DNA of 55,770 bases from an uncultured Dokdonia sp. (lineage in GTDB: Bacteria; Bacteroidota; Bacteroidia; Flavobacteriales; Flavobacteriaceae). A model generated the notes under the pieces. The model was not told the DNA's origin. It saw only the letters and a list, made by a program, of their open reading frames with translations, and made no database searches. The position numbers were made by a program, and so were the translations under genes. Position 1 is the first letter of the stretch, and each line of letters opens with the position of its first letter. The DNA is taken from positions 1-55,770 of the forward strand of contig CAJXSW010000006.1 in NCBI GenBank assembly GCA_913060645.1. The letters run 5' to 3'. Of the stretch, positions 235 to 55,533 are shown piece after piece.

Positions 235-254
235 TACGCTTTCGCGAAAGCGTA
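235..254. repeat. Iterated palindrome copy 1 (20 bp, intergenic)
   Basis: Perfect 20-bp palindrome TACGCTTTCGCGAAAGCGTA between lipA and the end of birA. It is one of 16 copies of the TTTCGCGAAA core in the window. Confidence 0.97.
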
Positions 255-257
255 CTC

Positions 258-989
258 TTAATATAATAATTGAAGTTCCTTGAGATCATACTCATTTACA
301 ATATCATTTTCTTCTTGAAGAAGTAGTTTTCCGGACTCTGAAACACCTTTTATTATTCCAACAAACTGACGCCCACCTGCCGAAAGAAATGTAGCAGGTT
401 TATCTTTTTTAAATAAGTGAGCTTCGTAGTCATTTTTGATGGTGTTGAATTCTCCTTTGAGAAGTAGGTCAACATAGTGATGAAATCTCTTTAGTAGTAG
501 TGATAAAATTTCTTCTAACTCAAAGTGAATCCCTGTTCTAGATTTTATTGAAGTAGCGCGAGGTACATTATTCCACTGTGTCTGATTTACATTAAGTCCT
601 ACGCCTAAGATCATTGCGTCAAGTTGCCCGCCTTTTATGACACTCTCTATAAGTATGCCGCATATTTTGTCGTTATCTGTCAATATGTCGTTAGGCCATT
701 TAACACGAACATTTTTTATGAGAAGTTTAGATAAAACATCTTTAACGGCGAGAGAAGCTGCCATAAGAGCATAAAATTGCTCGTTGATGGTAATTCGCTT
801 TACTTTTCTAAAAACGCTGAAGGTTAGGTTTTTACCGCTTTCAGTTTGCCACTGAGTACCCATCTGTCCACGTCCGGCAGTTTGTTCTAAAGCCCAAACT
901 ACGATGTCTTCCTCTGCGTTTTCTTCTTTTGAAATACGTTTGAGGTAATCGTTTGTTGAGTCAATGGTATGAAGTTTGTCTATGCGCAT
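258..989 (-). CDS. birA: Biotin--[acetyl-CoA-carboxylase] ligase (no DNA-binding domain)
   Basis: This 243-residue biotin protein ligase makes biotinyl-AMP and transfers biotin to the carrier lysine of acetyl-CoA carboxylase and other carboxylases. Visible motifs, N to C: STNDYL, the biotinyl-AMP loop GRGQMGTQW (residues about 40-48; the usual fourth-position Arg is Gln), KWPNDI, GILIE and GVGLNVN, followed by a short C-terminal SH3-like domain. There is no N-terminal helix-turn-helix, so this is a mono-functional ligase and not a BirA repressor. It is divergent from rsfS. A substrate complex subunit, accA, lies at 20068. Confidence 0.95.
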   Translation of the reverse strand: MRIDKLHTIDSTNDYLKRISKEENAEEDIVVWALEQTAGRGQMGTQWQTESGKNLTFSVFRKVKRITINEQFYALMAASLAVKDVLSKLLIKNVRVKWPNDILTDNDKICGILIESVIKGGQLDAMILGVGLNVNQTQWNNVPRATSIKSRTGIHFELEEILSLLLKRFHHYVDLLLKGEFNTIKNDYEAHLFKKDKPATFLSAGGRQFVGIIKGVSESGKLLLQEENDIVNEYDLKELQLLY

Positions 990-1046
990 ATGTAAAACAC
1001 CCAGTCTAAACTTGTGTTAAGACCGCAGAGTAATGTAAATTTGTAA

Positions 1047-5947: not shown

Positions 5948-8581
5948 CTATGTCAAACTAGCAAGACGTTTTTCTAAAGCCTCAATTTTTGCTTCGGCAT
6001 CTGCCATCTTTTGCTTTTCGATCTCAACCACCTTTTCTGGTGCATTGCTTACAAAGCGTTCGTTTGATAGTTTCTTAGAAACAGATATAAGGAAACCTTT
6101 CGTGTATTTGAGTTCTTCCTCAATTTTTGCAACTTCGGCCTCTACATCAATGGCGCCTGCAAGTGGTATGAAGTACTCATTAGATTTTACTCTAAAGGAT
6201 AATGCCCCGTCTAGTGGCGCTTTCGCGAAAGCGATCTCATTCACATTACCTAACTTCGAGATGATGCCATCATAGTCTGATGATGCTTTCTCATTGCTTA
6301 AAAGATGTAATTCTATTTGATCTTTAAAAGCTATGTTCTTACTTTTTCTTATCGTTCTTATTCCTGAAACAACTTGTGTAGCGTAGTCAAAATCTGCAAT
6401 GATTTGCTCGTTTACTTCGCCTCCTTCTGGCCATTTATTAATAATTAGCGCTTCTTCTGGAGTACGTGTAGCGATTGTCTGCCAGATCTCTTCAGATGCA
6501 AAAGGAATAAATGGGTGAAGGATACGTAGGTTGTTTTCAAATGCTGCAATTACCGCATCATAAGTTTTACGATCAATAGGCTGCTGGTATGCTGGCTTTA
6601 TAATTTCTAGTAACCAACCACAGAAGTCATTCCATACAAGTTTGTAACTAGCCATCAAAGCGTCAGAAATTCTATATTTTGAGAAGTGGTCTTCTATCTC
6701 AACAAGAGTCTGGTTAAAACGGTTAGTGTACCACTCTAGACCTTGTGCACTGTGTGCCGGTTGTGGTATGGTCTCATCAATCTCCCAACCTTGTATAAGG
6801 CTAAAGGCACTTAAATTTTTCTTGATGAATCCTTTTCCTTGTTTAAGTAGATCTTCATCAAACATAAGGTCGTTACCAGCGGCACTACTCAATAATAGTC
6901 CTACACGTACACCATCTGCTCCGTACTCTTTTATGAGCTCTAGCGCATCTGGTGAGTTGCCTAATGATTTAGACATCTTACGACGCTGCTTGTCTCTTAC
7001 AAGTCCGGTAAGATAAACGTTTTGGAAAGGTCTTTTATCTGTATACTCATATCCAGCTATGATCATACGTGCTACCCAGAAAAATAAAATATCTGGACCC
7101 GTTACAAGATCATTAGTAGGGTAGTAGTAGTTAAACTCTTCGTTGTCTGGATTGCGCACTCCGTCAAAAACACTCATAGGCCATAACCAAGAGCTGAACC
7201 AAGTGTCCATAGCATCTTCGTCTTGACGTAAATCTGTTGCAGTGAGGGAATCGTTTCCGGTACGCTTTCGCGAAAGCGTAACAGCCTCCTCTATACTTTC
7301 TGCTACTACAAAATCCTCTTTGCCATCTCCATAGAAGTAAGCAGGTATTTGCTGTCCCCACCATAATTGGCGAGAGATATTCCAGTCGCGTATGTTCTCC
7401 ATCCAGTGACGGTAGGTGTTTTCAAATTTCTTAGGAAATAACTTTACCTCTCCAGTTTCAAGCACAGCTTTTATGGCAGGTTTTACAAGCTCTTCCATTT
7501 TAAGGAACCATTGGTCAGATAGTCTAGGCTCAATTACGGCCTTTGTACGCTCAGATGTTCCCACTTTATTAATGTGGTTCTCTGTTTTTACTAGAGCGCC
7601 TATTTCTTCAAGTTCTTTTTTGATATTCTTACGACATTCAAAGCGATCTTGACCTTCATAGTGAAGTCCAAAACTATTAAGAGAAGCGTCGTCATTAAAG
7701 ATGTCTATTACTTCAAGCTTATGTTTATCGCCCAGCATTTTGTCATTCTCGTCGTGTGCAGGAGTAACCTTTAGGCATCCTGTTCCAAACTCAAGATCTA
7801 CATACTCATCTTCTATAATAGGAATCACACGGCCGCTTATAGGTACAATCGCTTTCTTTCCTTTAAGATGTGTGAAGCGTTCGTCTGTAGGGTTGATGCA
7901 TATAGCCGTATCGCCAAAAATAGTTTCTGGACGTGTAGTGGCAATCGTTAACGTTTCGTCAGAGCCTTCTAGTTTGTAGTTAAGGTAGTATAGAAGTCCT
8001 TGACGTTCTTCGTGTATTACTTCCTCATCAGAAAGTGTAGTTTTTGCTTCTGGATCCCAGTTTACCATGCGGTAACCGCGATATATAAGTCCTTTATTAT
8101 GTAAGTCTACAAAAGTTTTTATAACAGACTCAGACATTGCTGGATCCATTGTAAATGCGGTGCGTTCCCAGTCACATGAAGCTCCAAGCTTTTTGAGCTG
8201 ATCGAGGATTACCCCACCATACTCTTCTTTCCACTCCCATGCGTGCGCAAGAAACTCCTCACGAGTAAGATCAGATTTTTTTATCCCTTGTTCTTTAAGA
8301 CGTGCAACTACCTTTGCCTCTGTAGCAATAGAAGCGTGATCTGTTCCAGGTACCCAGCAAGCATTTTTTCCTAACAATCGAGCGCGACGTACTAAAACAT
8401 CTTGAATCGTGTTGTTAAGCATATGTCCCATGTGTAAGACTCCAGTAACGTTAGGAGGCGGTATCACAATGGTATACGGTTCTCTATCGTCTGGTGTAGA
8501 ATGGAAGTAATTATGTTCCATCCAGTAGCTGTACCACTTGTCTTCTACTTGGGTAGAATCATATTTTGATGCTATACTCAT
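5948..8581 (-). CDS. valS: Valyl-tRNA synthetase
   Basis: Class Ia synthetase of 877 residues that charges tRNA-Val. Visible features are the HIGH-type motif HMGH (residues 50-53, after PPPNVTGVL), the editing domain with ATTRPETIFGDTA, the KMSKS loop (about 533-537), the anticodon-binding helical domain and a C-terminal coiled coil (EVAKIEEELKYTKGFL...EKRLASLT). The gene contains two copies of the iterated palindrome: 7261-7280, read as TLSRKR in the CP1/catalytic region, and 6218-6233, read as AFAKA near the C-terminal arm. Both keep the frame open. A -7 box lies at 8612-8619. Confidence 0.97.
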   Translation of the reverse strand: MSIASKYDSTQVEDKWYSYWMEHNYFHSTPDDREPYTIVIPPPNVTGVLHMGHMLNNTIQDVLVRRARLLGKNACWVPGTDHASIATEAKVVARLKEQGIKKSDLTREEFLAHAWEWKEEYGGVILDQLKKLGASCDWERTAFTMDPAMSESVIKTFVDLHNKGLIYRGYRMVNWDPEAKTTLSDEEVIHEERQGLLYYLNYKLEGSDETLTIATTRPETIFGDTAICINPTDERFTHLKGKKAIVPISGRVIPIIEDEYVDLEFGTGCLKVTPAHDENDKMLGDKHKLEVIDIFNDDASLNSFGLHYEGQDRFECRKNIKKELEEIGALVKTENHINKVGTSERTKAVIEPRLSDQWFLKMEELVKPAIKAVLETGEVKLFPKKFENTYRHWMENIRDWNISRQLWWGQQIPAYFYGDGKEDFVVAESIEEAVTLSRKRTGNDSLTATDLRQDEDAMDTWFSSWLWPMSVFDGVRNPDNEEFNYYYPTNDLVTGPDILFFWVARMIIAGYEYTDKRPFQNVYLTGLVRDKQRRKMSKSLGNSPDALELIKEYGADGVRVGLLLSSAAGNDLMFDEDLLKQGKGFIKKNLSAFSLIQGWEIDETIPQPAHSAQGLEWYTNRFNQTLVEIEDHFSKYRISDALMASYKLVWNDFCGWLLEIIKPAYQQPIDRKTYDAVIAAFENNLRILHPFIPFASEEIWQTIATRTPEEALIINKWPEGGEVNEQIIADFDYATQVVSGIRTIRKSKNIAFKDQIELHLLSNEKASSDYDGIISKLGNVNEIAFAKAPLDGALSFRVKSNEYFIPLAGAIDVEAEVAKIEEELKYTKGFLISVSKKLSNERFVSNAPEKVVEIEKQKMADAEAKIEALEKRLASLT
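6218..6233. repeat. Iterated palindrome copy 2 (16 bp, in valS)
   Basis: CGCTTTCGCGAAAGCG within the valS C-terminal part, read on the coding strand as I-AFAKA-P. Confidence 0.97.
7261..7280. repeat. Iterated palindrome copy 3 (20 bp, in valS)
   Basis: Full 20-bp palindrome TACGCTTTCGCGAAAGCGTA in valS, read in frame as TLSRKR, a different frame from copy 2. Confidence 0.97.
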
Positions 8582-9201: not shown

Positions 9202-9215
9202 GCTTTCGCGAAAGC
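9202..9215. repeat. Iterated palindrome copy 4 (14 bp, intergenic)
   Basis: GCTTTCGCGAAAGC, 4 bases downstream of the terminator T-tract and 68 bases upstream of the aminotransferase start. Confidence 0.97.
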
Positions 9216-11595: not shown

Positions 11596-11605
11596 TTTCG
11601 CGAAA
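11596..11605. repeat. Iterated palindrome copy 5 (partial, intergenic)
   Basis: The core TTTCGCGAAA and the right arm GCGTA are intact, but the left arm has changed to ACCTT. It lies between the murB and fasciclin-gene terminators. Confidence 0.9.
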
Positions 11606-13899: not shown

Positions 13900-15015
13900 T
13901 TGGAACAAATTTTCACATTACTTTTTTATATATTTATAGGAGTCACGTTTATTAACGTGACTTTTTATGTTTTCTATTGGTTATTCGCTTTCGCGAAAAT
14001 TTCTATTACCAATACAAGTTCGCTTCCTCCAGTTTCGGTAATAGTTTGTGCCAAAAATGAGTCGGCAAATCTTCGAAAAAATATCCCAAAAATACTATCT
14101 CAAGACTATCCAGAATTTGAAGTTATTTTAATTAATGACGCATCTTCTGATGATACGGAAGATATTATGGAAGCATTTAAACTAGCCAATGTAAATGTAC
14201 AGCAGGTAAATGTGGTGAATAATGAGACTTTCTGGGGTAATAAAAAATACGCACTTACGCTTGGGATAAAACGAGCACAGCATAAGCACATGTTATTTAC
14301 AGATGCAGATTGTGTTCCCGCATCAAATCACTGGTTGCAACACATGGCTTCTTCCTTTAGTGAAGAAAAGGAAATTGTGTTAGGTTATGGAGCTTATGAG
14401 AAAATTAAAGGATCTTGGATTAATAAGCTTATAAGATTTGAAACTTTGATGACTGCTTTGCAATATTTTAGTTGGGCAAAAGCGGGTAGGCCTTACATGG
14501 GCGTAGGTCGTAACCTAGCGTATACTTCAGATGTTTTTTATGAGCAAAAGGGATTTATCAACCATATTAAAATTCAAAGTGGTGATGACGACCTGTTTGT
14601 AAACGAGGCAAGCACGCGAAAGAATACAGCTATCCAATTTTCTGCAGAATCATTTACAATTTCTACGCCTAAAAAAACTTTTGCAAGTTGGATAACTCAA
14701 AAACGTAGACACATAAGTACTGCAGTACACTATAAGTTTTTAGAGAAATCATTGCTAGCGCTATTTTATATAAGTCAGTGTTTGTTCTTAGTAGGAGCAA
14801 TTGCCCTTCTTGTAACTCAGTTTAACTGGCAGTGGGTAGCGCTCATTATTGGTGTACGTTATTTATGTGCATGGATTACTGTAGGTTGTAGCGCTGCGCG
14901 TTTGCAAGAAAAAGATTTGACTTATTTATACCCTATTTACGAGATTACGTTGGTATGTGTACAAATGAGTATCTTTATCAGTAACCTTATCACAAAACCC
15001 ACACGGTGGAAGTAA
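13900..15015 (+). CDS. Glycosyltransferase family 2
   Basis: This 371-residue membrane-linked GT-A glycosyltransferase has an N-terminal membrane helix (about 3-30), then PPVSVIVCAKNESANL, the nucleotide-binding EVILINDASSDDT, the metal-binding FTDADCVP (DxD-like), the acceptor-side GDDDLFVNE and QKRRH (QxxRW-like), and two to three C-terminal transmembrane helices. It probably transfers a sugar to an envelope lipid or polysaccharide. The TTG at 13900 is the only start that keeps the N-terminal helix. Palindrome copy 6 lies in that helix region and is read FAFAKI. It overlaps the next sigma gene by 10 bases. Confidence 0.88.
   Translation: MEQIFTLLFYIFIGVTFINVTFYVFYWLFAFAKISITNTSSLPPVSVIVCAKNESANLRKNIPKILSQDYPEFEVILINDASSDDTEDIMEAFKLANVNVQQVNVVNNETFWGNKKYALTLGIKRAQHKHMLFTDADCVPASNHWLQHMASSFSEEKEIVLGYGAYEKIKGSWINKLIRFETLMTALQYFSWAKAGRPYMGVGRNLAYTSDVFYEQKGFINHIKIQSGDDDLFVNEASTRKNTAIQFSAESFTISTPKKTFASWITQKRRHISTAVHYKFLEKSLLALFYISQCLFLVGAIALLVTQFNWQWVALIIGVRYLCAWITVGCSAARLQEKDLTYLYPIYEITLVCVQMSIFISNLITKPTRWK
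13989..13998. repeat. Iterated palindrome copy 6 (partial, in GT2 gene)
   Basis: TTTCGCGAAA with an intact left arm CGC (13986-13988) and a changed right arm. It is read in frame as AFAKI. Confidence 0.9.
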
Positions 15016-15575: not shown

Positions 15576-16807
15576 AAGCTATACCCTTTAAAAAGTTAGG
15601 GCCAGGATTATTATTTGCTGGTGCAGCTATTGGGGTTTCTCATCTTGTACAAAGCACTAGAGCAGGCGCCGATTTTGGCTTTGGTCTATTGTGGGCTTTG
15701 ATTCTTGTTAATATTATAAAATATCCCTTCTTTCAGTTTGGGCCCAGGTATGCCTCGGCAACTGGGAATAGTTTGTTAGTCGGTTATATGAAGTTAGGTA
15801 AACCTGTTTTGTGGGTTTATTTCTTTTTGACGCTAGCCACTATGTTTACTATTCAGACAGCAGTAACTATTGTAACTGCAGGAATAGCTGTTCAGCTTTT
15901 TGGAATAACTAATGACGTCGCGATATGGAGTGTCGCAATTACAATTCTGTGTGCTGCAATACTAGCAATAGGAAAGTATAGGATTCTCGATAAACTAATG
16001 AAGGTGATTATTATCACACTCACTATAAGTACGCTGGTGGCTGTCTTTTTTGCTTTTCGCGAAAGCGTAATTAATCAAGGAATGGGTACTCCAGCAAACT
16101 TGCTCCAAATTATACCAACCGAAGGAGCAGCTGTGGCATTTCTAATTGCCTTTATGGGGTGGATGCCAGCGCCACTTGATATTTCTATATGGCATTCATT
16201 ATGGACACTAGAAAAGAGAGATACGGGTAAGGATGCAATGCGCAATTCAATTTTTGACTTTAATATAGGGTATGCTGGTGCGGTAGTGCTGGGTATTTGC
16301 TTTATGACCTTAGGAGCATTAGTCATGTTTGGCACTGGAGAGACTTTTTCTCCAAGGGGAGGTGTTTTTGCAGGCCAACTTATCAATATGTACACAGCAA
16401 GTCTGGGTGACTGGGCAACCTTGCTTATTGGTGTGGCTGCATTTACAACAATGTTTAGCACCACACTTACTACATTAGATGCGTCTCCTAGGGCGCTAGA
16501 CGCTACCACCTCATTACTAGGTTTTGGTTTTAAAAAACGAGGGTACTTGTTTTATTTAATCGTCTTAATTCTTGGAACCTGCGGCATATTATTTTTCTTA
16601 ATAAGCGAGATGGGAGCTCTTGTAAAACTGGCGACCATATTATCTTTTCTTACCGCTCCGTTCTATGCTATTTGCAACTATTTATCCTTTAAGGACGAAA
16701 GTATTCCTAAAGAAGCGAAGCTCTCTAAAGGCATGGATTTGCTCAGTATTGTGAGTATAATTGCTTTGTTAGGCTTCAGCATCTGGTATGTTATTACATT
16801 GTTTTAA
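15572..16807 (+). CDS. NRAMP-like transporter with non-canonical metal site
   Basis: This 411-residue, about 11-helix protein of the LeuT-fold NRAMP superfamily is recognisable from GPGLLFAGAAIGVSHLVQS followed by AGADFGFGLLW, the VNIIKYPFFQFGPRYASATG segment and the TM6 region MGWMPAPLDISIWHS. The metal-binding TM1 motif DPGN of true NRAMP/MntH is GVSH here (residues 21-24). The TM6 MPH motif reads MPAPLD. Mn/Fe transport therefore cannot be assumed, and the substrate is unknown. The start is the TTG at 15572, coupled to the sigma gene. Palindrome copy 7 is read as AFRESV between helices. Confidence 0.8.
   Translation: MKAIPFKKLGPGLLFAGAAIGVSHLVQSTRAGADFGFGLLWALILVNIIKYPFFQFGPRYASATGNSLLVGYMKLGKPVLWVYFFLTLATMFTIQTAVTIVTAGIAVQLFGITNDVAIWSVAITILCAAILAIGKYRILDKLMKVIIITLTISTLVAVFFAFRESVINQGMGTPANLLQIIPTEGAAVAFLIAFMGWMPAPLDISIWHSLWTLEKRDTGKDAMRNSIFDFNIGYAGAVVLGICFMTLGALVMFGTGETFSPRGGVFAGQLINMYTASLGDWATLLIGVAAFTTMFSTTLTTLDASPRALDATTSLLGFGFKKRGYLFYLIVLILGTCGILFFLISEMGALVKLATILSFLTAPFYAICNYLSFKDESIPKEAKLSKGMDLLSIVSIIALLGFSIWYVITLF
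16055..16064. repeat. Iterated palindrome copy 7 (partial, in NRAMP-like gene)
   Basis: TTTCGCGAAA with an intact right arm GCGTA. The left arm has one extra T. It is read in frame as FRESV. Confidence 0.9.
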
Positions 16808-21136: not shown

Positions 21137-21156
21137 TACGCTTTCGCGAAAGCGTA
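21137..21156. repeat. Iterated palindrome copy 8 (20 bp, upstream of dnaB)
   Basis: Full TACGCTTTCGCGAAAGCGTA, 21 bases upstream of the putative dnaB -7 box, so it covers the region where -33 contacts are expected. Confidence 0.97.
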
Positions 21157-22818: not shown

Positions 22819-22834
22819 CGCTTTCGCGAAAGCG
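22819..22834. repeat. Iterated palindrome copy 9 (16 bp, intergenic)
   Basis: CGCTTTCGCGAAAGCG just past the dnaB terminator. Confidence 0.97.
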
Positions 22835-24968: not shown

Positions 24969-26228
24969 ATGAAGAAACTACTTATATTATCCTTTTTGAT
25001 ATTGAATTTCGCTTTCGCGAAAGCGTCATATATCCTCATCCCTATGGATATAGAGACTCAAAGGGAGCATCTTAAAGCATATGGAATTACGTACTGGTCA
25101 CTTGATAAAAACCAAAAAGTAAAGTGGTTACTTAACTATAGAGGTGGCTCTTTCTTACTGCCAGATACCGAAGAGGTACGCCGCGAGTGTACGATACGTG
25201 GTGTATCTTATGAAGTATTATCAGACTCACAAACGGAACAAATTCTTACAGAGATTGCGAGTCCTTCTCAAAATATGGAAGCTGTCGTGCTAGAAAAAGC
25301 GCCAAAAATTGCCGTGTACACACCAGACAGCAAAGTGCCTTGGGATGATGCAGTAACAATGGTGCTTACCTATGCAGAGATACCTTACACCACTATTTAC
25401 GATACAGAAGTGCTTAGTGATCAGCTTATTTTATATGACTGGTTACACTTGCATCATGAAGATTTTACGGGGCAGTTTGGAAAATTCTATGGCTCTTACC
25501 GCGCCTCGCCTTGGTATATAGAAGAGAAAAAAACTGCGGAAGGCCTTGCTACCAAATTAGGTTACGATAAAGTCTCAAAGGAAAAAGGCGATGTAGCTCT
25601 TAAGATACGTGACTATGTTGTGGGAGGAGGTTTTATGTTTGCCATGTGTAGCGCGACAGATAGTTTTGATATTGCCCTCTCTGCCGAGGGAGTAGATATT
25701 TGTGAACCAATGTTTGACGGAGATCCTAGCGAACCAGGATATACTTCAAAAATAGACTTCCAGAAAACATTTGCTTTTAAAAACTATACCCTAGAGCGTT
25801 CTCCTACTACGTACGAGTTTTCGTCTATTGATATGACGCGCAAGCGTAAGATTCCTTTTCAAACAGATTATTTTACCTTAAAAGATTATAGTGCAAAATG
25901 GGATCCTATTCCTACGATGCTTTGTCAAAATCATACTGCACTTGTAAAAGGCTTTATGGGACAGACTACCAGTTATGATCCAGAGACTATCAAGTCTAAT
26001 GTGTTAGTAATGGGTGAAAACCTTACTAATGGTGAAGCGAGATATATTCATGGGATTAAGGGGAAAGGATTCTTTACTTTTTATGGAGGTCACGATCCAG
26101 AAGATTACCAGCACAGAGTAGGTGATCCTAAGACAGAGTTAGAGCTGCATCCTAACTCGCCTGGTTATCGTTTGATTTTAAATAACGTACTGTTTCCAGC
26201 AGCACGCAAGAAGAAACAAAAAACCTAA
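24969..26228 (+). CDS. Secreted protein of unknown function (amidotransferase/ThuA-like fold suspected)
   Basis: This 419-residue exported protein has a signal peptide MKKLLILSFLILNFAFAKAS whose last residues (AFAKA) are encoded by palindrome copy 10. After a helical segment (IETQREHLKAYGITYWSLDK...), residues from about 105 resemble a class I glutamine-amidotransferase/ThuA-like Rossmann domain: KIAVYTPDSKVPWDDAV, YDWLHLHHEDFTGQ, GGGFMFAMCSATDSFD, and GKGFFTFYGGHDPEDYQH. I believe homologues are sometimes labelled asparagine synthetase B, but there is no Ntn N-terminal Cys and no synthetase domain; the true AsnB is at 27654. The start is the ATG at 24969. It is followed by a DUF922 gene 5 bases later. 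Confidence 0.7.
   Translation: MKKLLILSFLILNFAFAKASYILIPMDIETQREHLKAYGITYWSLDKNQKVKWLLNYRGGSFLLPDTEEVRRECTIRGVSYEVLSDSQTEQILTEIASPSQNMEAVVLEKAPKIAVYTPDSKVPWDDAVTMVLTYAEIPYTTIYDTEVLSDQLILYDWLHLHHEDFTGQFGKFYGSYRASPWYIEEKKTAEGLATKLGYDKVSKEKGDVALKIRDYVVGGGFMFAMCSATDSFDIALSAEGVDICEPMFDGDPSEPGYTSKIDFQKTFAFKNYTLERSPTTYEFSSIDMTRKRKIPFQTDYFTLKDYSAKWDPIPTMLCQNHTALVKGFMGQTTSYDPETIKSNVLVMGENLTNGEARYIHGIKGKGFFTFYGGHDPEDYQHRVGDPKTELELHPNSPGYRLILNNVLFPAARKKKQKT
25010..25025. repeat. Iterated palindrome copy 10 (16 bp, in a signal peptide)
   Basis: CGCTTTCGCGAAAGCG, read as AFAKA at the signal-peptidase site of the secreted protein. Confidence 0.97.
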
Positions 26229-27507: not shown

Positions 27508-27527
27508 TACGCTTTCGCGAAAGCGTA
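27508..27527. repeat. Iterated palindrome copy 11 (20 bp, intergenic)
   Basis: Full TACGCTTTCGCGAAAGCGTA between the divergent DUF2911 and asnB genes. Confidence 0.97.
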
Positions 27528-30594: not shown

Positions 30595-31758
30595 TCATGT
30601 AGTCACGTATTCTTTTAAATCAGAAGTTAAGATATCTGTGAGTTCGCGCTCATTATCAGGATTTGTCTCTGTAAAAATAAATCCAAATACAGGATAGCTA
30701 TGTATATCTAGTGGTCTTACTAATACTGGTTTTTCAAACTTTGTAGCTATCTTCTTGTAGTCAAAACTTTTGATGTTTTCGGCAGGGATACCCGTGCTAT
30801 TATCGAGTATAATTATGCTAAAGACTTTATCTTCCTTGCTTTTAAATATCTGGTCCCAGTTAGGTTTTTTGCTTTCGCGAAAGCATACATAAGAATTAAA
30901 ATCTACAGTAACACCAAGTGAGTCACCCGTAGTACAAAATCCTCCAAAACGTAACGGATTAACCTCAATAGGAGTGATCTTTCCAGAAGCACCTATACGT
31001 ATCTCTGCATGCGCAGGAAAATTCTTGAGTTGTAATTCTTGTCCTAATGCGTTTAGAAATTCATGTATGGCAGTACTATGTGTGGTGATAATATCTTTTG
31101 AGGTGCAATAAACGCGATCGCTAGTGTCTTTTCCAGAAGAGAATAGGTGGTGTAAAATGTTTAAGATTACAACCTCACCATTTGCATTGTGATAGTAATC
31201 TATAGCAAATTCTTCTCCTTGAATAAATTCTTCAATAATGAAATATGTGGTGTCCAGCACATTTTTAGGAAAGATGCTTTTGAGCTTCTCTGGGTGTAGC
31301 TCTTTCTTTGCTTGTTCCCAATCATGTTGATCTTGAATAATATGAACGCCTATACTGAAAAAGCCAACACTAGGTTTTATAACAAAAGGAAATTTCAATG
31401 TTTCGGCATCTAGAAGATGCACATCTGTTAGAGAAAGCTTTTGGAAATAAAAGTCTGGAAACAAGCTTTTTGTAAGTTCTCTGAACAGGACTTTGTCCTT
31501 TAAAATATTTATTTGTCGAGCAAGCTGGCTATCTCCCAGGTGCTGTTCTATCCATACCAGCGCGTTTTCTGAATTTGAGTATAGCGTTGTCTCTGGATTA
31601 TCGTTATAGACAGTTATAGCATCCTGCTCATCAATCCAGTTAAGTGTGTCATCTTGTATGATAGACATCGCAACTGGAGTTGCAATAATGGGGTAGTTAT
31701 TTTCCTTTATAGTTGCAATAAGAAAATCTGAAGCAAATGGCTTATCTATTAAAAACAT
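30595..31758 (-). CDS. ATP-grasp domain protein
   Basis: This 387-residue protein has a pre-ATP-grasp Rossmann-like N-terminus (MFLIDKPFASDFLIATIKENNYPIIAT) and an ATP-grasp core: KDKVLFRELTKSLFPDFYF, FPFVIKPSVGFFSIGVHII, FIIEEFIQGEEFAIDYY, and AHAEIRIGASGKITPIEVNPLRFGG with its metal-binding E/N pair. The fold ligates carboxylates to amines or thiols using ATP, so a peptide-like small molecule or a modified amino acid is plausible. Palindrome copy 12 encodes CFRES after the core. It sits 34 bases downstream of marC on the same strand, so the two are probably cotranscribed. Confidence 0.85.
   Translation of the reverse strand: MFLIDKPFASDFLIATIKENNYPIIATPVAMSIIQDDTLNWIDEQDAITVYNDNPETTLYSNSENALVWIEQHLGDSQLARQINILKDKVLFRELTKSLFPDFYFQKLSLTDVHLLDAETLKFPFVIKPSVGFFSIGVHIIQDQHDWEQAKKELHPEKLKSIFPKNVLDTTYFIIEEFIQGEEFAIDYYHNANGEVVILNILHHLFSSGKDTSDRVYCTSKDIITTHSTAIHEFLNALGQELQLKNFPAHAEIRIGASGKITPIEVNPLRFGGFCTTGDSLGVTVDFNSYVCFRESKKPNWDQIFKSKEDKVFSIIILDNSTGIPAENIKSFDYKKIATKFEKPVLVRPLDIHSYPVFGFIFTETNPDNERELTDILTSDLKEYVTT
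30870..30885. repeat. Iterated palindrome copy 12 (16 bp, in ATP-grasp gene)
   Basis: TGCTTTCGCGAAAGCA, with outer T/A in place of C/G. It is read in frame as CFRES. Confidence 0.97.
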
Positions 31759-32608: not shown

Positions 32609-33322
32609 ATGGCAATAAAAACATCTACAGACGCAGCTTCCTATATTTCTATAAAAAATTGGTCTGAAGATGATAGGCCACGAGAAAAACTAATGATTAA
32701 AGGAAGATCTGTGTTATCTGATGCAGAGTTAATCGCTATTTTGATAAGTTCTGGTTCTAGAGAAGAAAGCGCAGTCGCACTCAGTAAACGTATTCTCTCA
32801 CAGGCCGAGAATAATCTTTCAGAGCTGGGTAAATTTTCGGTAAAGGATTTAATGAAATTTAAAGGAATAGGAGAGGCAAAGGCAGTTACTATTGCTGCTG
32901 CGCTAGAACTAGGGAGAAGGAGAAGTGGTGGAGAGACGCTTTCGCGAAAGCGTATTTCTTCCTCAAAAGATGCTTATCAAATTTTACAACCAATAATAGG
33001 AGAGCTAGGGCATGAGGAATTCTGGGTACTTTTTTTAAATAATTCTAACAAGGTACTACGCAAAGAGCAAGTGAGTAAAGGCGGACTCACGGGAACGCTA
33101 GTAGATGTAAGGTTAGTGATGAAAACAGCTATTGAGCTCAGTGCTGTAGGAATGATTTTAGGACATAATCACCCTTCTGGAACGCTTAAACCATCACAAG
33201 CAGATAAGCTACTTACTGCCAAACTAAAGACGGCTGCACAGAGTCTAGATATCCAAGTCTTAGACCATATTATTGTGACCGAAAAGCAGTATTTTAGCTT
33301 TGCCGATGACGGCATTCTATAA
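32609..33322 (+). CDS. radC: RadC family JAMM-domain protein
   Basis: This 237-residue protein has an N-terminal helix-hairpin-helix part (LSDAELIAILISSGS, LMKFKGIGEAKAVTIAAALELGRR) and a C-terminal JAMM metallopeptidase-like domain with HNHPSGTLKPSQADKLLTAKL. It is historically called a DNA repair protein, although the role of RadC in repair is disputed. Palindrome copy 13 lies exactly at the linker between the two domains, where it encodes TLSRKR. It is 14 bases upstream of the deacetylase-like gene. Confidence 0.93.
   Translation: MAIKTSTDAASYISIKNWSEDDRPREKLMIKGRSVLSDAELIAILISSGSREESAVALSKRILSQAENNLSELGKFSVKDLMKFKGIGEAKAVTIAAALELGRRRSGGETLSRKRISSSKDAYQILQPIIGELGHEEFWVLFLNNSNKVLRKEQVSKGGLTGTLVDVRLVMKTAIELSAVGMILGHNHPSGTLKPSQADKLLTAKLKTAAQSLDIQVLDHIIVTEKQYFSFADDGIL
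32936..32953. repeat. Iterated palindrome copy 13 (18 bp, in radC)
   Basis: ACGCTTTCGCGAAAGCGT in the interdomain linker of radC, read as TLSRKR. Confidence 0.97.
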
Positions 33323-39543: not shown

Positions 39544-40299
39544 ATGAACAAAGAAGCAGATTATTTTAAGTTTTATAACGGGGTATTAGTGTACCCATTG
39601 TTGTTTGTGCTCGTGATGTGGATTATATTTTGGGTAGAAATAAAGTTCGGCTTAGACTTCACAAGATGGGGTGTTAAACCGCGTACGGTATCGGGAATAA
39701 GAGGTGTGATTTTCTCACCATTTATTCATTCTGGAATTAAACACTTATGGCACAACACCGTGCCATTACTTGTACTTAGTGCCGCCTTGTTTTATTTTTA
39801 TAGGAAAATATCTTGGCGTGTTTTGGCGCTTCTAATACTCTTAAGCGGTGCAGGTACTTGGATGATTGGAAGAGTTTCCTATCACATAGGTATGAGCGGC
39901 GTTATATATGCGCTAGTTTCTTTTCTCTTTTTTAAAGGAATTCTAGCAAAGCATTTTCGGCTTATTGCACTTTCCTTAATAGTTGTCTTTCTATACGGTA
40001 GTCTCATATGGGGAACGCTACCCACTAGTGAGACTATATCTTGGGAAGGTCATTTATCTGGATTTATAGCTGGAGGATTGGTTGCATTATGCTTTCGCGA
40101 AAGCGTACCAAAACCACTCACGTACAATTGGGAAAAACCCGATTATGTTTCAGATGAAGATCCATTCATGCAGCAGTTTGATGAAAACGGAAACTTTTTT
40201 GAGCTACCTCCAGAAATTGACCAAGATGGGGAAACGGAAACTATTGTGATAAGTTATGAGTATAAAGAGCCTAAATCAACTGAAAAAGGTGACTTATGA
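39544..40299 (+). CDS. Rhomboid family intramembrane serine protease
   Basis: This 251-residue, about six-helix membrane protein has the rhomboid catalytic pair: Ser in HIGMSGVIYAL (GxSG, about residue 119) and His in WEGHLSGFIAGG (about 175). The L1-loop-like WGVKPRTVSGIRGVIFSPFIHSGIKHLWHN ahead of the core supports this. A soluble acidic C-terminal tail follows (about 200-251). Palindrome copy 14 encodes CFRES right after the last membrane helix. It is convergent with rlmB and overlaps its end by 6 bases. Confidence 0.93.
   Translation: MNKEADYFKFYNGVLVYPLLFVLVMWIIFWVEIKFGLDFTRWGVKPRTVSGIRGVIFSPFIHSGIKHLWHNTVPLLVLSAALFYFYRKISWRVLALLILLSGAGTWMIGRVSYHIGMSGVIYALVSFLFFKGILAKHFRLIALSLIVVFLYGSLIWGTLPTSETISWEGHLSGFIAGGLVALCFRESVPKPLTYNWEKPDYVSDEDPFMQQFDENGNFFELPPEIDQDGETETIVISYEYKEPKSTEKGDL
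40091..40104. repeat. Iterated palindrome copy 14 (14 bp, in rhomboid gene)
   Basis: GCTTTCGCGAAAGC, read in frame as CFRES at the boundary of the membrane core and the C-terminal tail. Confidence 0.97.
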
Positions 40300-44559: not shown

Positions 44560-44569
44560 TGTTCTTTTT

Positions 44570-47978: not shown

Positions 47979-48161
47979 TATTAATAAGTTTTGTTTAACG
48001 TTGATTTTTATTTTTATTTTAATTTTTGAGTCTTATATTCAATGTAAGGGTGACTTAAGAATTGACGTCTAATGTTTAAAAATTTTACGCCTATCTATCT
48101 AATATTAGTATACATAATACCTATTTAATGTGTTGTTGAGTTGTTAATGCATTTCATTTTC

Positions 48162-48177
48162 TGCTTTCGCGAAAGCA
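48162..48177. repeat. Iterated palindrome copy 15 (16 bp, intergenic)
   Basis: TGCTTTCGCGAAAGCA between operon 2's terminator and operon 1's promoter region. Confidence 0.97.
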
Positions 48178-48190
48178 TTTTGCTACAAAT

Positions 48191-48226
48191 AAAAAAAAGG
48201 CTATCTAAAGAATTAGATAGCCTTTT
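48191..48226 (-). terminator. Terminator of SusC/SusD operon 2
   Basis: AAAAGGCTATCTAA (48195-48208) pairs perfectly with TTAGATAGCCTTTT (48213-48226). On the minus strand it ends in a T-run. Confidence 0.88.
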
Positions 48227-48272
48227 AATTTTCAACCCTTAATCTAGATTAAGCGGTTATGTAATAAGAGAA

Positions 48273-49124: not shown

Positions 49125-49144
49125 AATATAAATATGTTTTAAGA

Positions 49145-50596: not shown

Positions 50597-50609
50597 ATTT
50601 TATTTTATT

Positions 50610-53600
50610 TTAAAATCCGATGTCAACACCAAATGTAAGTGACTTAGTTTGTGGGTAACTGAATAAAGAAAACTGTCCAGCTACAAATCCAGCATCGCCA
50701 GGGCCGCTATTTTCAGCAGAACCAATTCCAATTTCCGGATCTCCTTCGTAGTCAGTAAAAGTTAATAAGTTTTGTCCAGTTCCATAAATCCTTACTGAAG
50801 AAAGACCTGTTCTGTCGAGTAGTTTACTAGGGATGTCGTAAGAAAGAGTTAATGTTCTTAGTCTTACATAATCACCTTTCTCTAAGAATCTAGTAGAGGT
50901 TTGATCAGCTGTTGCTTCATATAATGGGTTAGGAAGAACATTTTGATCTCCTGGTTGTTGCCAGTAATTGAATGCTTCAACTCTTTGGTTAGAATCGATA
51001 TTACCGATTTGGACACCTGCAGATCTTTGGAAGTTTTGGATGTAGTTTCCAGCTTTGAAAACAAAATCACCACGAAGACCAAAGCCTTTGTAACGTATAT
51101 TTCCGTAAAAACCTCCTTCTATGTTTGCAAGTGGAGATTTACCTTCTAGAGTCTTAGCAAAGTCAGCACTATATTGGTTTGTTACATCACCATCTGCCGT
51201 TAAGTATAGGGGCTCACCGTTACCTGGATTAACTCCGGCGTATTCAACTAAAAAGAAAGTATTGATTTCTTCACCTACACGTAAAATTGTATTTCCATTA
51301 TTGATGTCTTCACCATCTACGAGTTCTTTAACTTCATTGTCAAGGAAGGCAATGTTTCCTCCTAATGACACTCTCCAGTCTTCTGTTTTGATTGCGTCAA
51401 AGTTTAAGGCAACTTCTAATCCAGAGTTTTCAATTTTACCAATGTTAGATAAAATTCCATTGTTTCCATCACCTACAAGTCCTGAAATAGGTCTATTTAG
51501 AAGAAGGTCTTCAGAAGTCTTTACGTAGTAATCTACAACACCACTAATGCGGTTGTTAAATAGACCAAATTCAACTCCGATATCAGCAAGAAATTGTTGT
51601 TCCCACTTAATGTCTGGATTTGCTATACCACCTGGTACTGCAGAGCTATTTCCATTGTATGTTCCAAAACCGATAAGGTTAACAAATTGGTTGTTACCTA
51701 TGTTTTGATTACCTGAACTACCATAAGAAGCTCTTAGTTTAAGGTCGTTAAAAATACTTCCTTCCATAAAATCTTCTTTAGCAATATTCCAAGCAGCACT
51801 TCCACTGTAGAAAATCGCATTTTGATTTTCAGGACCAAAACGAGATGACGCATCGTTTCTTACCGATGCAGATACAAGGTATTTACCGTCATAATCATAA
51901 TCAACAAATAGTCCTTGTGAGAATAAACTGTTACGAACCTCAGTCGACCCACCATCACTAAAATCAGCGGCTACATCTAAGAAAGGAATATCCGCTGAAG
52001 GGAATCCTCTACCTGATACGTTAGTACGAGTAAAGATTCTTTCATTGTATTCTAAAAGTACATCAGCACTAATATTGTGCTTCTCTCCAAATGTATCTTT
52101 ATATCCAAATACGTTACTTACGTTATATTGGAAATCTACATTAAGTGACTCTCTTTGAGTACCAGGGAAGTTTGAATCACCTACAATAGGGTCTAGCGTT
52201 CCGCCAGCAATAGATCTAGCTACTGTTCTACCTCTGTTAGTAGTTGTACCTACTGCAAATCTGTTTGAAAATTTATCAGAAAATTTTAGGTCGGCAAAAA
52301 TATTAGCAACAAGCAAGAAGTTTGTGTTAGTTTCAGGTTCAGTTTGTAGAGCCTGTGCAACTGGGAATCCTGAAGTTGTAGGGTTGAATTGAGGTTCACC
52401 ATCTGCGTTTGTAACTATTTCATTGTTTCCATCTCTTAAGAATAGAGTTTCATAAGGATTTGCGTCATATAAAAATCTGAAAGGATTTTGAACGTTGTTA
52501 CGGTCTCTTGGTAAATCTGTAGTACTTCTAGACGCAGAAATATTAGTTCCCACTGTAAGCCAATCTCTAGCTTCATAAGTTGTATTTAAACGGGCTGAGA
52601 TTCTTTCAAAACCATCAATACGATCAATAATACCTGTGTTTTTGTCATATCCAAGAGACAAGAAGTAGTTGATTTTCTCATCAGCTCCTGATATAGCAAG
52701 AGAGTTAGATTGAATGTAACCTTTTCTTAAAAGTGCGTCTTCCCAATTGGTGTCATTTCCAATTAATCTAGCTAATTCTTCAGGTGATGATGTTGCTCCT
52801 GGAAGTCCTTGAGCCTGAGGTACACCTAGTGCAGCATATTGTCTCTCAAGTTCTAATTTTTGAGATGCATTCATTAAATCAAATGGATCTGCAATTCTCT
52901 CACTAGTTCCAATAGAAGATCTAAATACAAACTTAGCATCTTTACTTCTACCTCTTTTTGTAGTAATCAAGATTACTCCGTTTGCTCCTCTAGAACCATA
53001 TTTAGATACTGTAGCAGCATCTTTAAGTATAGTAAGGGTTTCGATATCGTTTGGGTTGATGTTATTAACAAACTCAGCCTCAATAGGGGCTCCATCAATT
53101 ACATATAATGGTGTTGTTGCAGCATTAATCGAACCTACTCCACGAATCTGTACAAATGCAGTTTGACCTGGTTGTCCATTTGCAGCAGTTACCTGTACTC
53201 CGGCAGCTTTACCTTGAAGAATGTTATCTACACTCGTAGATGGTACAAAATCTTCAATTGATCCAGCACTTACGGTTGTTGTAGCTGCTGTAGATAAATC
53301 TCTAGAGCGACTTCCATAACCTGTAATAACAACTTCTGCTAGTGAATTGTCAGCTTCAAGAGTGGCATTAATTGAGTTTTGATTACCAACTTGGATGTCT
53401 AGAGTTTTGAAACCAACGTAACTAAAAGAAAGAACATCACTTGATGCTGCTTCAATAGAAAAGTTTCCATCAAAATCTGTTTGAGTACCTGTAGAGGTAC
53501 CTTTAATTACCACTGTCGCACCTGGAAGTGGTCCATTAGCCTCAGTTACCGTACCCGTAATGATACGACCCTGTGCAAACAGGGCGGAGGCACTTAAAAT

Positions 53601-53639
53601 AGTACAAAGAACAAGTACTTTTTGTAAAAGTGTTTTCAT
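50610..53639 (-). CDS. SusC/RagA family TonB-dependent outer-membrane transporter (operon 2)
   Basis: This 1009-residue transporter has a signal peptide ending ALFAQG, a carboxypeptidase-regulatory-like domain (TVTEANGPLPGATVVIKGTS), the TonB box region AEVVITGYGSRSR, and the plug (GVGSINAATTPLYVIDGAPI, TLTILKDAATVSKYGSRGAN then GVILITTKRG). The barrel ends in Phe (TFGVDIGF). It heads a three-gene operon with a classical SusD. Its sequence differs greatly from the operon 1 SusC apart from the N-terminal domains, so the loci are not recent duplicates. Confidence 0.96.
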   Translation of the reverse strand: MKTLLQKVLVLCTILSASALFAQGRIITGTVTEANGPLPGATVVIKGTSTGTQTDFDGNFSIEAASSDVLSFSYVGFKTLDIQVGNQNSINATLEADNSLAEVVITGYGSRSRDLSTAATTTVSAGSIEDFVPSTSVDNILQGKAAGVQVTAANGQPGQTAFVQIRGVGSINAATTPLYVIDGAPIEAEFVNNINPNDIETLTILKDAATVSKYGSRGANGVILITTKRGRSKDAKFVFRSSIGTSERIADPFDLMNASQKLELERQYAALGVPQAQGLPGATSSPEELARLIGNDTNWEDALLRKGYIQSNSLAISGADEKINYFLSLGYDKNTGIIDRIDGFERISARLNTTYEARDWLTVGTNISASRSTTDLPRDRNNVQNPFRFLYDANPYETLFLRDGNNEIVTNADGEPQFNPTTSGFPVAQALQTEPETNTNFLLVANIFADLKFSDKFSNRFAVGTTTNRGRTVARSIAGGTLDPIVGDSNFPGTQRESLNVDFQYNVSNVFGYKDTFGEKHNISADVLLEYNERIFTRTNVSGRGFPSADIPFLDVAADFSDGGSTEVRNSLFSQGLFVDYDYDGKYLVSASVRNDASSRFGPENQNAIFYSGSAAWNIAKEDFMEGSIFNDLKLRASYGSSGNQNIGNNQFVNLIGFGTYNGNSSAVPGGIANPDIKWEQQFLADIGVEFGLFNNRISGVVDYYVKTSEDLLLNRPISGLVGDGNNGILSNIGKIENSGLEVALNFDAIKTEDWRVSLGGNIAFLDNEVKELVDGEDINNGNTILRVGEEINTFFLVEYAGVNPGNGEPLYLTADGDVTNQYSADFAKTLEGKSPLANIEGGFYGNIRYKGFGLRGDFVFKAGNYIQNFQRSAGVQIGNIDSNQRVEAFNYWQQPGDQNVLPNPLYEATADQTSTRFLEKGDYVRLRTLTLSYDIPSKLLDRTGLSSVRIYGTGQNLLTFTDYEGDPEIGIGSAENSGPGDAGFVAGQFSLFSYPQTKSLTFGVDIGF

Positions 53640-53838
53640 AAAAAAATTTGTTTATTTATAGCAAAAATCTGTAATAAGATTATTTGAATCACAAACTTTG
53701 TTGTTAAAAAAATTAAGATAATTTAACTTTAACTTATTGTTAACTTAGGTTTGTGAAATTGAAGGTAAAAATTTAACCTAATAACCTTTGATTAGAATTA
53801 TCTATTGCATAAATGTCAATCAGTTTTCCTTCTTTTTT

Positions 53839-55533
53839 TTAGAAACTCACTTCCAAAATTACGTGAAGTTTAGTGTCTGAAAACCTAAACTCTTGATTAT
53901 CAAATAGACCGTTTGCAATGTTTAATTTTAGTATTCCTGCTTTGGTCTGAATGCCAGTACCTAAGCCAAAACTGTAGAGTGTTTGCTTTGTTTTCTCAAT
54001 GCGATTTTCGAGGTACCCAAGGTCTAAAATTGAGTTGATGTAGATGCCTTCGTTTAGTTTGTATCTGTACTCTGTATTTAGGGTGTTGTATAGGTTTGCT
54101 AAAAGGCTATTTTCTTCAAATCCTCTAAGAGTTAAAATTCCGCCAAAACGATAAAGTTCGTTTGTTAAGAAATTGTTAGAGATTAAATATTGTGTGGTAT
54201 TTTTTGCAAATATGGAATGTTTGTCACTTAAAGTAAATTCATTTTCTAGTATAGCAGTAAGAGATATTTGTTTGTCTAAGTTTTCTGTGATTTCTCTATT
54301 TCCAAAAGCAGCTCTAAAATATAATCGTCTTTTTGTTGGAAAAAATAAATCAGTAGATAGATTTTGGTGTGTAAATGATGTTGTTAGTCTTTTAGAGGTG
54401 AAGTCTTCAAGATTTAGAAGTTGAGTAATGGTGTTGTCGTTAAGATTTTCTGATTGTTCAGATTCGTATCCTAGTGTAAGGTGGTTTTTTTGATTTAGTT
54501 GATAAACTAAATCTAGGGACTGTTGTGTTGTGGAAAATGTGCTGTCTTTCCTAAAGAGGTTGAGGGATGCTTCAATTCCTAGTGGACTTTTGAAAAGGTA
54601 AGGTAGTTTGGTCTTTAAATGGAGCTGCGATTGATCGCCTCCATCTGCTTTGTAATTTAAAATGAATGTTTCTCCATAATTAAAGTTGTTTGTAAGGAGT
54701 AGGTCGAGATACCCATTTAAGCTAAAAGAGTTGTCTTCCTCATTTGCAAAACCTAGAAAGCCATCAAATTTATTGACATTTTTACGTTCTAAATAAAGGT
54801 AAACTGTTGTGCTGTCTGGATTAAAAAGTACTTGCGGGGTTTTAGTTTGATTTACAAAAGGAAGAGACGATAGTTCCTTGCTCTGTTTATTGAGTTTCTC
54901 ACGGTTAAATATTTCGCCTTCCTTTAATTTGACGCTATGTTTGAGAAAGCTTTTCGGGACATTAGTGTATCCTTCAATTTCGATTTTATCAATTGTTCTT
55001 CTGTTTTCAAAAGAATACTTGAGTGTTCCTTCAAGATTGTGTTGTGTTGTTTTGGTGATGTTGGCTATTTGAAATGTAGCAAAAGGATTTCCGTTGTTTG
55101 ATGCTATGGAGCTTAATTTTTTTAAGTACGCTTTCGCGAAAGCGGTCTCTATAGTTATGCTGTCATTTTTAATTCTATATCCTGTCTGTGTTATATAACT
55201 CTCGAGGTCTTTGTTTTTTTTGATTTTTAAAGTTATGTATGGGTAGGATTTGTCCAGAAGGAACGTGGCAATATATAAGGTGTCGTTTTTTGTAGTTAAC
55301 TTATAAGTGCTGTCTAGGTGCCCTAAATTTTGTAATTGCGTGTTTAGGTTTTGGAGTTCATCTAGTGCAGACTGTTTATCTTTAAATGTAGTCTTGTAAT
55401 TTGTGTTATCCAGAATAGCAGACTCTGATGGAAGATTACTTTGTATTTCTAATTGTATTCTTGCATCATTTTTTTGTGCAGACATATTTTGTCTCACCAA
55501 GCAAATAATTAAAAATAGATAGAGTAGTTTCAA
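53839..55533 (-). CDS. Omp85/BamA-like outer-membrane protein
   Basis: This 564-residue exported protein (signal peptide MKLLYLFLIICLVRQNMSAQ) has POTRA-like repeats (SYENRRTIDKIEIEGYTNVPKSFL-type strand-helix-strand around residue 170-250) and a 16-strand-type barrel with FDGFLGFANEED and the C-terminal ELHVILEVSF ending in Phe. It resembles surface antigen D15/TamA-type proteins and not canonical BamA, which is longer. Palindrome copy 16 encodes AFAKA near residue 130. A variant -7 box (55574-55581) precedes it; a ribosomal operon starts on the other strand. Confidence 0.75.
   Translation of the reverse strand: MKLLYLFLIICLVRQNMSAQKNDARIQLEIQSNLPSESAILDNTNYKTTFKDKQSALDELQNLNTQLQNLGHLDSTYKLTTKNDTLYIATFLLDKSYPYITLKIKKNKDLESYITQTGYRIKNDSITIETAFAKAYLKKLSSIASNNGNPFATFQIANITKTTQHNLEGTLKYSFENRRTIDKIEIEGYTNVPKSFLKHSVKLKEGEIFNREKLNKQSKELSSLPFVNQTKTPQVLFNPDSTTVYLYLERKNVNKFDGFLGFANEEDNSFSLNGYLDLLLTNNFNYGETFILNYKADGGDQSQLHLKTKLPYLFKSPLGIEASLNLFRKDSTFSTTQQSLDLVYQLNQKNHLTLGYESEQSENLNDNTITQLLNLEDFTSKRLTTSFTHQNLSTDLFFPTKRRLYFRAAFGNREITENLDKQISLTAILENEFTLSDKHSIFAKNTTQYLISNNFLTNELYRFGGILTLRGFEENSLLANLYNTLNTEYRYKLNEGIYINSILDLGYLENRIEKTKQTLYSFGLGTGIQTKAGILKLNIANGLFDNQEFRFSDTKLHVILEVSF
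55129..55144. repeat. Iterated palindrome copy 16 (16 bp, in Omp85-like gene)
   Basis: CGCTTTCGCGAAAGCG with the left TA flank retained. It is read in frame as AFAKA. Confidence 0.97.

Follow-up and report, generated by a model that had tools for sequence, protein, structure and literature searches.

The genome to which the window belongs (the window being the whole stretch analysed, 55,770 nucleotides from an uncultured Dokdonia sp.) carries a 10-mer palindrome, TTTCGCGAAA, in numbers far above chance, and the palindrome is confirmed here as a real, genome-wide feature. Its copies are candidate recognition sites of one homodimeric DNA-binding protein, most likely with a role in chromosome maintenance, a reading that we place somewhat short of an even chance.

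The palindrome in the window and its distribution

The window contains 16 exact copies of TTTCGCGAAA, all of those that an earlier note on this DNA had counted, against 0.05 expected from 100 dinucleotide shuffles (at most one copy in each); its rough estimate had been fewer than 0.1 by chance. Thirteen of the 16 extend to the 14-mer GCTTTCGCGAAAGC and four, starting at 235, 7261, 21137 and 27508, to the 20-mer TACGCTTTCGCGAAAGCGTA; the earlier note had given both figures, and the flanks bear out the second. Thirteen of its core starts were exact and three were off by one (7266 rather than 7265, 32940 rather than 32939, and 48165 rather than 48166). The sites are listed below with simple ORF calls behind their positions; no strand is assigned to the sites themselves, and (+) and (-) refer to the ORFs.

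Site 1, 240..249: TTTCGCGAAA core of the full 20-mer (235-254); aligned 10-mer in G402, G400, G399 and G397, absent in G405, G412 and G410
Site 2, 6221..6230: in the 877-aa ORF 5948-8581 (-); 10-mer in G402, G400, G399, G397, G405 and G410, absent in G403, G409 and G412
Site 3, 7266..7275: full 20-mer (7261-7280), within the 877-aa ORF 5948-8581 (-); 10-mer in 9/9 aligned relatives
Site 4, 9204..9213: exact 10-mer
Site 5, 11596..11605: exact 10-mer; flank reading, GC flank on one side only
Site 6, 13989..13998: GC flank on one side only (GCTTTCGCGAAAAT), in ORF 13900-15015 (+); both GC flanks in G397, G403, G405 and G412
Site 7, 16055..16064: exact 10-mer in ORF 15572-16807 (+); flank reading, GC flank on one side only
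Site 8, 21142..21151: exact 10-mer; flank reading, full 20-mer (21137-21156)
Site 9, 22822..22831: exact 10-mer, intergenic by ORF call
Site 10, 25013..25022: in ORF 24930-26228 (+); 10-mer in 6/6 aligned relatives
Site 11, 27513..27522: exact 10-mer, intergenic by ORF call; flank reading, full 20-mer (27508-27527)
Site 12, 30873..30882: exact 10-mer in ORF 30595-31758 (-)
Site 13, 32940..32949: exact 10-mer in ORF 32609-33322 (+)
Site 14, 40093..40102: exact 10-mer in rhomboid-family gene 39544-40299 (+)
Site 15, 48165..48174: exact 10-mer, intergenic by ORF call
Site 16, 55132..55141: exact 10-mer in ORF 53839-55533 (-); aligned in 0/9 relatives compared

Sites lie between and inside varied genes, as the earlier note had held in saying that the motif is not attached to one gene class. 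The excess extends to the whole genome, with 932 copies of TTTCGCGAAA against 10 of the reversed control, and it is not limited to this contig: the 14-mer occurs 369-905 times in each of the 18 Dokdonia genomes examined (18/18), with a control count of 0. Neither of the outcomes that the earlier note had named as refuting the observation was therefore seen. Among 397 Flavobacteriaceae genomes, only Dokdonia and two other genera are rich in the motif (3 of the 237 genera sampled), an oddly narrow range for a basic chromosome function and one that counts against a binding protein. None of the other 394 genomes in a draw of 395 from the phylum was rich, and single 10-mers occurred in 3 of the 80 named loci listed, which included no congeners. 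An FtsH tree, representing one protein, was built from the window's own copy, 16 of these 80 loci and 21 of the best 24 matches, those in L204, L216 and L224 being omitted. No published description of the palindrome was found among the matches listed in the openly licensed literature, where the 14-mer matched no paper and the 10-mer matched 10 papers with titles on other subjects.

Symmetry, spacing and conservation of the sites

The sites follow a symmetric motif, TTACGCTTTCGCGAAAGCGTAA, with strict inner and graded outer positions, and this graded consensus is found in all three genera. The strict unit measures about 12 bp: within 459 kb, TTCGCGAA is nearly always accompanied by the outer T and A (133/135), and 111 of 133 G402 sites show the full GCTTTCGCGAAAGC. 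At its outer positions each half varies roughly independently of the other (133 and 214 sites), with no clear excess of matching pairs between halves; the largest such count, at position 8, was 143 where 134.7 were expected, and position 12 fell below expectation. Chromosomal sites have GC next to the core on one side or both in 269/269 cases and on both in 223, counts compatible with independent halves, under which about two sites with neither would be expected (worked out by hand). Near-miss forms are few but above chance. For the 12-mer, 29 one-off forms (13 of them at position 8) stand beside 244 exact copies, both strands counted, where 1.4 were expected; for the 14-mer, 111 exact copies are accompanied by 9 with one mismatch and 20 with two, against 0.0 and 1.3 simulated. 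A hairpin or cruciform function was rejected, the arms showing no clear compensating excess.

Intergenic DNA is enriched in sites, although half of them fall inside ORFs, where they occur in all three frames (some orthologous copies counted more than once); for gene placement a G402-only count was made, in which no site is repeated through its orthologues. A T5 run is found close to 8 of 259 sites, compared with 13.8% of random places (some orthologous copies counted repeatedly), which disfavours an intrinsic terminator and upholds the earlier note on this point. Pairs of sites less than about 1.5 kb apart are also under-represented, including when coding and noncoding DNA are controlled for: gaps under 1 kb numbered 10 of 110 in G402 against 32.6 simulated, and gaps under 1.5 kb numbered 0 of 41 in g11 and g191 together against 12.2 simulated, both with this control. 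Strict periodicity was rejected: the gap histograms of the sets have no clear peak in common and show avoidance of short gaps alone. Around the G402 chromosome, 20 stretches of 20 kb held 2-8 sites each, with no restriction to ori or ter seen in them, and the orientation of the 18 asymmetric sites in these stretches, a small sample, had no link to strand skew. These two results speak against a domain marker of the matS, Noc or KOPS type.

Site density drops as Dokdonia genome size grows (Spearman -0.70; 13 near-complete genomes, 5 of the 18 below 90% completeness having been dropped; rounded sizes), with no significant rise in site count in the same 13 genomes. A gradual build-up of sites in core DNA would account for this drop better than a requirement to cover the genome evenly, and to that extent the drop counts against a binding protein.

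Conservation of the sites is strong. Fully aligned window sites were intact in G402 (14/14), G400 (13/13), G399 (15/15), G397 (10/10) and G403 (9/11), whereas sampled 10-mers were intact in 54, 36, 50, 18 and 8%, respectively, and other CGCG 10-mers in G403 in 0/28. Among the aligned sites, the three closest relatives show neither gains nor losses. The flanks of the sites are less conserved than average in G397 and G403 only (two of five relatives), not in the three closest.

A proposed binding protein and the competing explanations

From these features we infer protein binding, a dimeric state and a role for the putative binder. A cytoplasmic homodimer could sit at intervals of about 2-4 kb along the chromosome of Dokdonia and of the two other Flavobacteriaceae genera, and a single bound palindrome might serve the 1-2 kb around it, so that a second nearby site would not be needed; a site of such reach would make chromosome maintenance the most likely role. 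The tasks proposed are to loop or compact the nucleoid, or to aid repair or replication locally. parS, Noc sites, matS and SlmA sites are symmetric sites of dimeric proteins and are far fewer per genome. The Dokdonia palindromes would resemble them as putative dimer-type sites spread across the chromosome, and differ from them in being many more, in lacking ori or ter restriction (20 sampled stretches) and in the unchanged ParB. The fuller picture, in which Dokdonia and two further genera have some 560-1100 near-identical putative dimer sites arranged as a lattice over the whole chromosome, kept apart by an exclusion distance of 1-2 kb and read by a predicted protein, is possible but doubtful. 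If true, the lattice would be old enough for temperate phages to have acquired sites too, and binding would reveal a further, new level at which the nucleoid is organised, one whose sites are already mapped; we know of no earlier sequence-specific bacterial nucleoid organiser with nearly a thousand self-spaced sites. As D. donghaensis and its relatives are marine strains in culture and are not known to be harmful, the question can be tested directly.

The partner protein was not found. ParB, the only binder tested, does not fit, and its re-targeting, or that of Noc, was rejected: ParB counts and ParB columns are alike in rich and poor genomes, and none of the alignment columns tells the ParBs of 9 rich genomes apart from those of 9 poor ones. 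A second ParB_N protein occurs in 2/16 rich and 7/19 poor genomes, and the canonical parS core is exact in 6/20 rich and 2/22 poor genomes. The surroundings of the closest site pairs were searched for a self-regulating partner gene; among the 8 neighbouring proteins scanned there was no DNA-binding candidate, five matching families (OmpA, aminotransferase, DUF885, YicC-like and PNPase) and three matching none.

The main rival is a self-marker of the DNA-uptake type, because temperate-type phages also carry sites. Five whole phage records, picked for multiple hits, have 5 sites each; four of them encode an integrase or Mu-type transposase, and unrelated temperate-type phages carry sites. Their sites, and a population pattern like that of published DNA uptake sequences, count against a binding protein. 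As a self-marker, the palindrome would favour import or recombination of the DNA that bears it, and bias together with recombination would spread and maintain the sites; we regard this as a possibility, though an unlikely one. The 932 copies are of the same order as the published counts of 1471 and 1965 for uptake sequences (PMC1939737). Neisserial DUS are described as having spacing that matches conversion fragments, strong conservation and a location in permissive core DNA (PMC2397512), and the palindromes are likewise self-spaced, conserved and enriched between genes, with a density that falls as genomes grow. USS accumulate in temperate phages of the Pasteurellaceae (PMC6776037), as do sites in the four records with an integrase or transposase. 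The likeness to DUS and USS covers some thousand copies, non-random spacing, strong conservation and temperate-phage accumulation, and may extend to a permissive core location, which the intergenic enrichment and the falling density fit but the flank identity, below average in two of five relatives, bears out in part. The ComEC family (PF03772), moreover, is present in 24/24 genomes tested. However, DUES are stated to be non-palindromic and less evenly spaced than chromosome compaction would need (PMC1939737), whereas the Dokdonia motif is a palindrome of dimer type, complete in the great majority of G402 sites. The T2SSE or pilus-type ATPase exceeds its family cut-off in 7/18 rich genomes and 4/27 poor ones and is missing in 11/18 rich genomes, five single-contig assemblies among them, so that pilus-based uptake cannot be general and was rejected, and any uptake role here is putative. 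The confinement of the weaker flank conservation to G397 and G403 also speaks against uptake. We know of no report of competence in Dokdonia, a name absent among the matches listed in the literature on Dokdonia or competence. If the sites do serve uptake, they would form a third, independent uptake-sequence lineage beside neisserial DUS and pasteurellacean USS, and hence a third origin of DNA self-recognition; to our knowledge, no such marker is known so far in the phylum of Dokdonia.

The remaining explanations are less probable. A signal of the Chi-like or repair-directing type, recognised on either strand by a recombination nuclease, would suit sites that are genome-wide, conserved, present on phages and spaced at kb scale; E. 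coli Chi likewise occurs about once per few kb throughout the genome. The Chi sites known so far are short and lack symmetry, unlike the longer, palindromic Dokdonia core with its independent halves, and the 18 asymmetric sites from the 20 G402 stretches, a small sample, showed no strand bias; we consider this explanation improbable. Slightly less probable still is a mechanism like that of the cyanobacterial HIP1, in which the inner palindrome would be marked by a methyltransferase, and copies would arise and persist through biased repair. HIP1 and the alternate HIPs, which are tied to methyltransferases (PMC4390886), resemble our motif in being short, GC-centred palindromes that recur at kb scale. 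The Dokdonia palindrome differs in its longer strict unit, TTCGCGAA hardly occurring without the outer T and A, and in having no common methyltransferase of the two main families: neither PF00145 nor PF01555 is common to the 12 rich genomes tested. PF00145 was found in five and PF01555 over its cut-off in one and below it in two more, including G399, where it is the only match; five (G402, G403, G412, G398 and G242, the first two single contigs) matched neither. A methyltransferase-driven repeat was rejected on these two families. A mobile miniature palindrome or REP-like element has a very slight probability. It would explain many near-identical copies and the intergenic enrichment, and with no aligned site gained or lost in the three closest relatives the manner of gain is not visible at close range; against it stand the sites in ORFs in all three frames, their mutual avoidance, and the finding that 1/16 gain-or-loss pairs among farther relatives has a gap roughly as long as a site opposite it, in a set of pairs whose flanks have themselves diverged. 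The first interpretation in the earlier note thus holds as to genome-wide occurrence, the lack of a terminator and the variety of genes, but the methylation-linked site and the miniature inserted element that it had offered are disfavoured by these results. Its other two proposals, a nucleoid-protein site and an uptake-type sequence, both stand as candidates, between which computation alone does not decide.

The motif also traces gene flow, as by a copper-resistance-like cluster in G160: of the nine copies of the 10-mer in this genome, five lie inside 24 kb, in and just past the cluster.

Abundance and distribution of the palindrome

The 10-mer TTTCGCGAAA occurs in 16 exact copies in the window, where 0.05 would be expected from dinucleotide shuffles. 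All the copies claimed in the earlier note are present, although three of its start positions are wrong by one base, and thirteen of the 16 do read GCTTTCGCGAAAGC, the 14-mer that adds GC on each side, as it had claimed. The excess that it anticipated at genome scale is likewise borne out: the window's own genome (G000), 3.11 Mb long at 89% completeness, contains the 10-mer 932 times and the reversed word 10 times, and 459 kb of the relative G402 holds 266 occurrences, both strands counted, against about 4 under an order-4 Markov model.

Comparison with related flavobacterial genomes takes the motif well beyond this contig. In each of the 18 Dokdonia genomes examined (18/18) the 14-mer occurs 369-905 times and the reversed control never, and among 397 genomes of the family (237 genera) the 10-mer is abundant in G000 and G206, both Dokdonia (932 and 1107 copies), in three genomes of the genus g11 (595, 700 and 648) and in one of the genus g191 (559), with 0-34 copies in the remainder. 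In a phylum-wide draw of 395 genomes, G000 was the sole rich one, and the 14-mer reached at most six copies in every other. An FtsH tree leaves the branching order of g191, Dokdonia and one motif-poor genus unresolved, and g11 joins at a deeper fork that is likewise unresolved, so that the tree does not separate a single origin of the motif from several; one FtsH relative (G076, contig C1, 840111-842030) has one internal TAA.

The symmetrised consensus, TTACGCTTTCGCGAAAGCGTAA, is strict at its centre and fades toward the outside, and its inner part, CGCTTTCGCGAAAGCG, is identical across Dokdonia, g11 and g191 in stretches with a G+C of 0.33-0.40, 0.35 and 0.45, respectively. GC adjoins the core on at least one side at 269/269 chromosomal sites and on both sides at 223/269; one of 28 phage sites lacks this GC altogether. 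At their outer positions, the half-sites vary approximately independently, with no clear excess of matching changes, which disfavours a hairpin or cruciform. A dimer that reads two equivalent half-sites would produce this pattern. The 12-mer TTTCGCGAAAGC occurs 244 times in 459 kb (both strands counted). The same length holds 29 one-mismatch forms, against an expectation of 1.4, and in 13 the mismatch falls at position 8.

Conservation, spacing and placement of sites

Across five relatives whose nucleotide identity ranges from 93 to 75%, the fully aligned window sites were intact in 14/14 cases in G402, 13/13 in G400, 15/15 in G399, 10/10 in G397 and 9/11 in G403, compared with 54, 36, 50, 18 and 8% of sampled 10-mers in the same five genomes, respectively. 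Farther away, 6/9 (G405), 2/5 (G409), 2/5 (G412) and 2/3 (G410) were intact. No aligned site was gained or lost among the three closest relatives; in 16 gain-or-loss pairs, 2 to 11 of the 14 positions differ, one pair involves a gap of 11 bases, and the flanks have also diverged (0.47-0.75 identity).

The sites keep away from one another. Against random placement preserving the coding/noncoding share, 10/110 gaps in G402 were below 1 kb vs 32.6 simulated and 3/110 below 500 bases vs 20.2 expected, so close pairs do occur; in g11 and g191 together, 0/41 gaps were below 1.5 kb vs 12.2 simulated, the smallest being 1841 bases. Gap histograms had no clear peak common to the sets. From this mutual avoidance, each site seems to serve about 1-2 kb of the DNA around it. 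Two consecutive 14-mer gaps of ~16.7 kb (mean 3.8 kb) lie at ~287-321 kb of G397 contig C1, and this stretch is perhaps an island. SusC/SusD-type TonB receptor and partner genes at 42940-53639 lie in a site-poor part of the window.

By simple ORF calls, 66/133 sites in G402 lie inside ORFs, although ORFs make up 88% of bases; in a wider, partly orthologous set the figure is 115/211, spread over all three frames (53, 35 and 27 sites), and these sites mostly translate as AFAKA, LSRK or FRES. Intergenic density is 1.73 per kb in convergent, 1.50 in tandem and 0.90 in divergent gaps, and T5 runs are rarer near sites (8/259) than at random places (13.8%). Terminators, which the earlier note had also set aside, and promoter elements are therefore unlikely. 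It had also raised density relative to origin and terminus: twenty 20-kb stretches around the G402 chromosome contain 2-8 sites each, which does not indicate confinement to either.

A putative dimeric binder and the uptake alternative

A homodimeric DNA-binding protein is, tentatively, our best explanation for a symmetric motif whose halves are independent, whose individual sites are conserved and whose copies exclude one another at short range. Such a protein would work near every site throughout the chromosome, most likely helping to maintain it. No partner was found among ParB, two methyltransferase families, a pilus-type ATPase and ComEC. ParB of about 300 aa occurs equally in rich and poor genomes, and no column of an alignment of 9 rich and 9 poor sequences distinguishes them; PF00145 and PF01555 methyltransferases had no match in 5/12 rich genomes, two being single contigs; and ComEC is present in 24/24 genomes tested.

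The strongest rival, which we consider less likely, is a self-marker for DNA uptake like the published uptake sequences (DUS). The small number of rich genera, the presence of sites in phages and the fall in density with genome size (13 near-complete Dokdonia genomes, in which the count shows no significant rise) would suit it, but the motif is palindromic and the pilus-type ATPase is often missing, exceeding the cut-off in 7/18 rich and 4/27 poor genomes. Likeness to DUS lies in conservation and spacing, and perhaps in placement in permissive core DNA; an excerpt of PMC2397512 describes all three for DUS, with the spacing tied to recombination tracts. An excerpt of PMC1939737 reports a steep drop from exact to one-mismatch DUS forms, and disputes the view, which it attributes to Karlin and co-workers, that even DUS spacing signals replication, repair or compaction.

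Motif-bearing DNA in phages and elsewhere

Viral contigs with the motif comprise at least 120 stretches; the 80 loci retained are mostly single-copy and very varied in G+C. Twelve viral records counted whole have 2-5 copies of the 14-mer (eight records) or one (four). Six of the eight, fetched because they bear several sites (five whole, one partial), hold 28 10-mer sites in 185 kb, or 0.15 per kb. Marker genes in five of the six showed temperate-type phages in G413, G415 and G419 (integrase) and in G414 (Mu-type transposase, tail sheath, head protease), and a phage in G420 (capsid, tape-measure, helicase). In Pasteurellaceae, according to an excerpt of PMC6776037, temperate phages accumulate uptake sequences, of which large and probably lytic phages have few.

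Genome G160 has nine motif copies in total, three within a copper-resistance-like cluster (locus L324; contig C1 305000-335000 together with L325) of AcrB-type pump, outer-membrane efflux protein, multicopper oxidase, heavy-metal P-type ATPase and HlyD_D23 genes, and two more within 10 kb beyond it; the cluster probably came from a motif-rich relative. Other palindromes are also repeated: TGGTGCACCA occurs five times in 20 kb of G402 (1.08-1.10 Mb; L257), and a 21.9-kb contig of Pontibacter fetidus (NZ_JAAEAA010000031.1; L045) has four copies of AACTATAGTT and nine of ACTATAGT, perhaps another iterated palindrome in a different Bacteroidota family.
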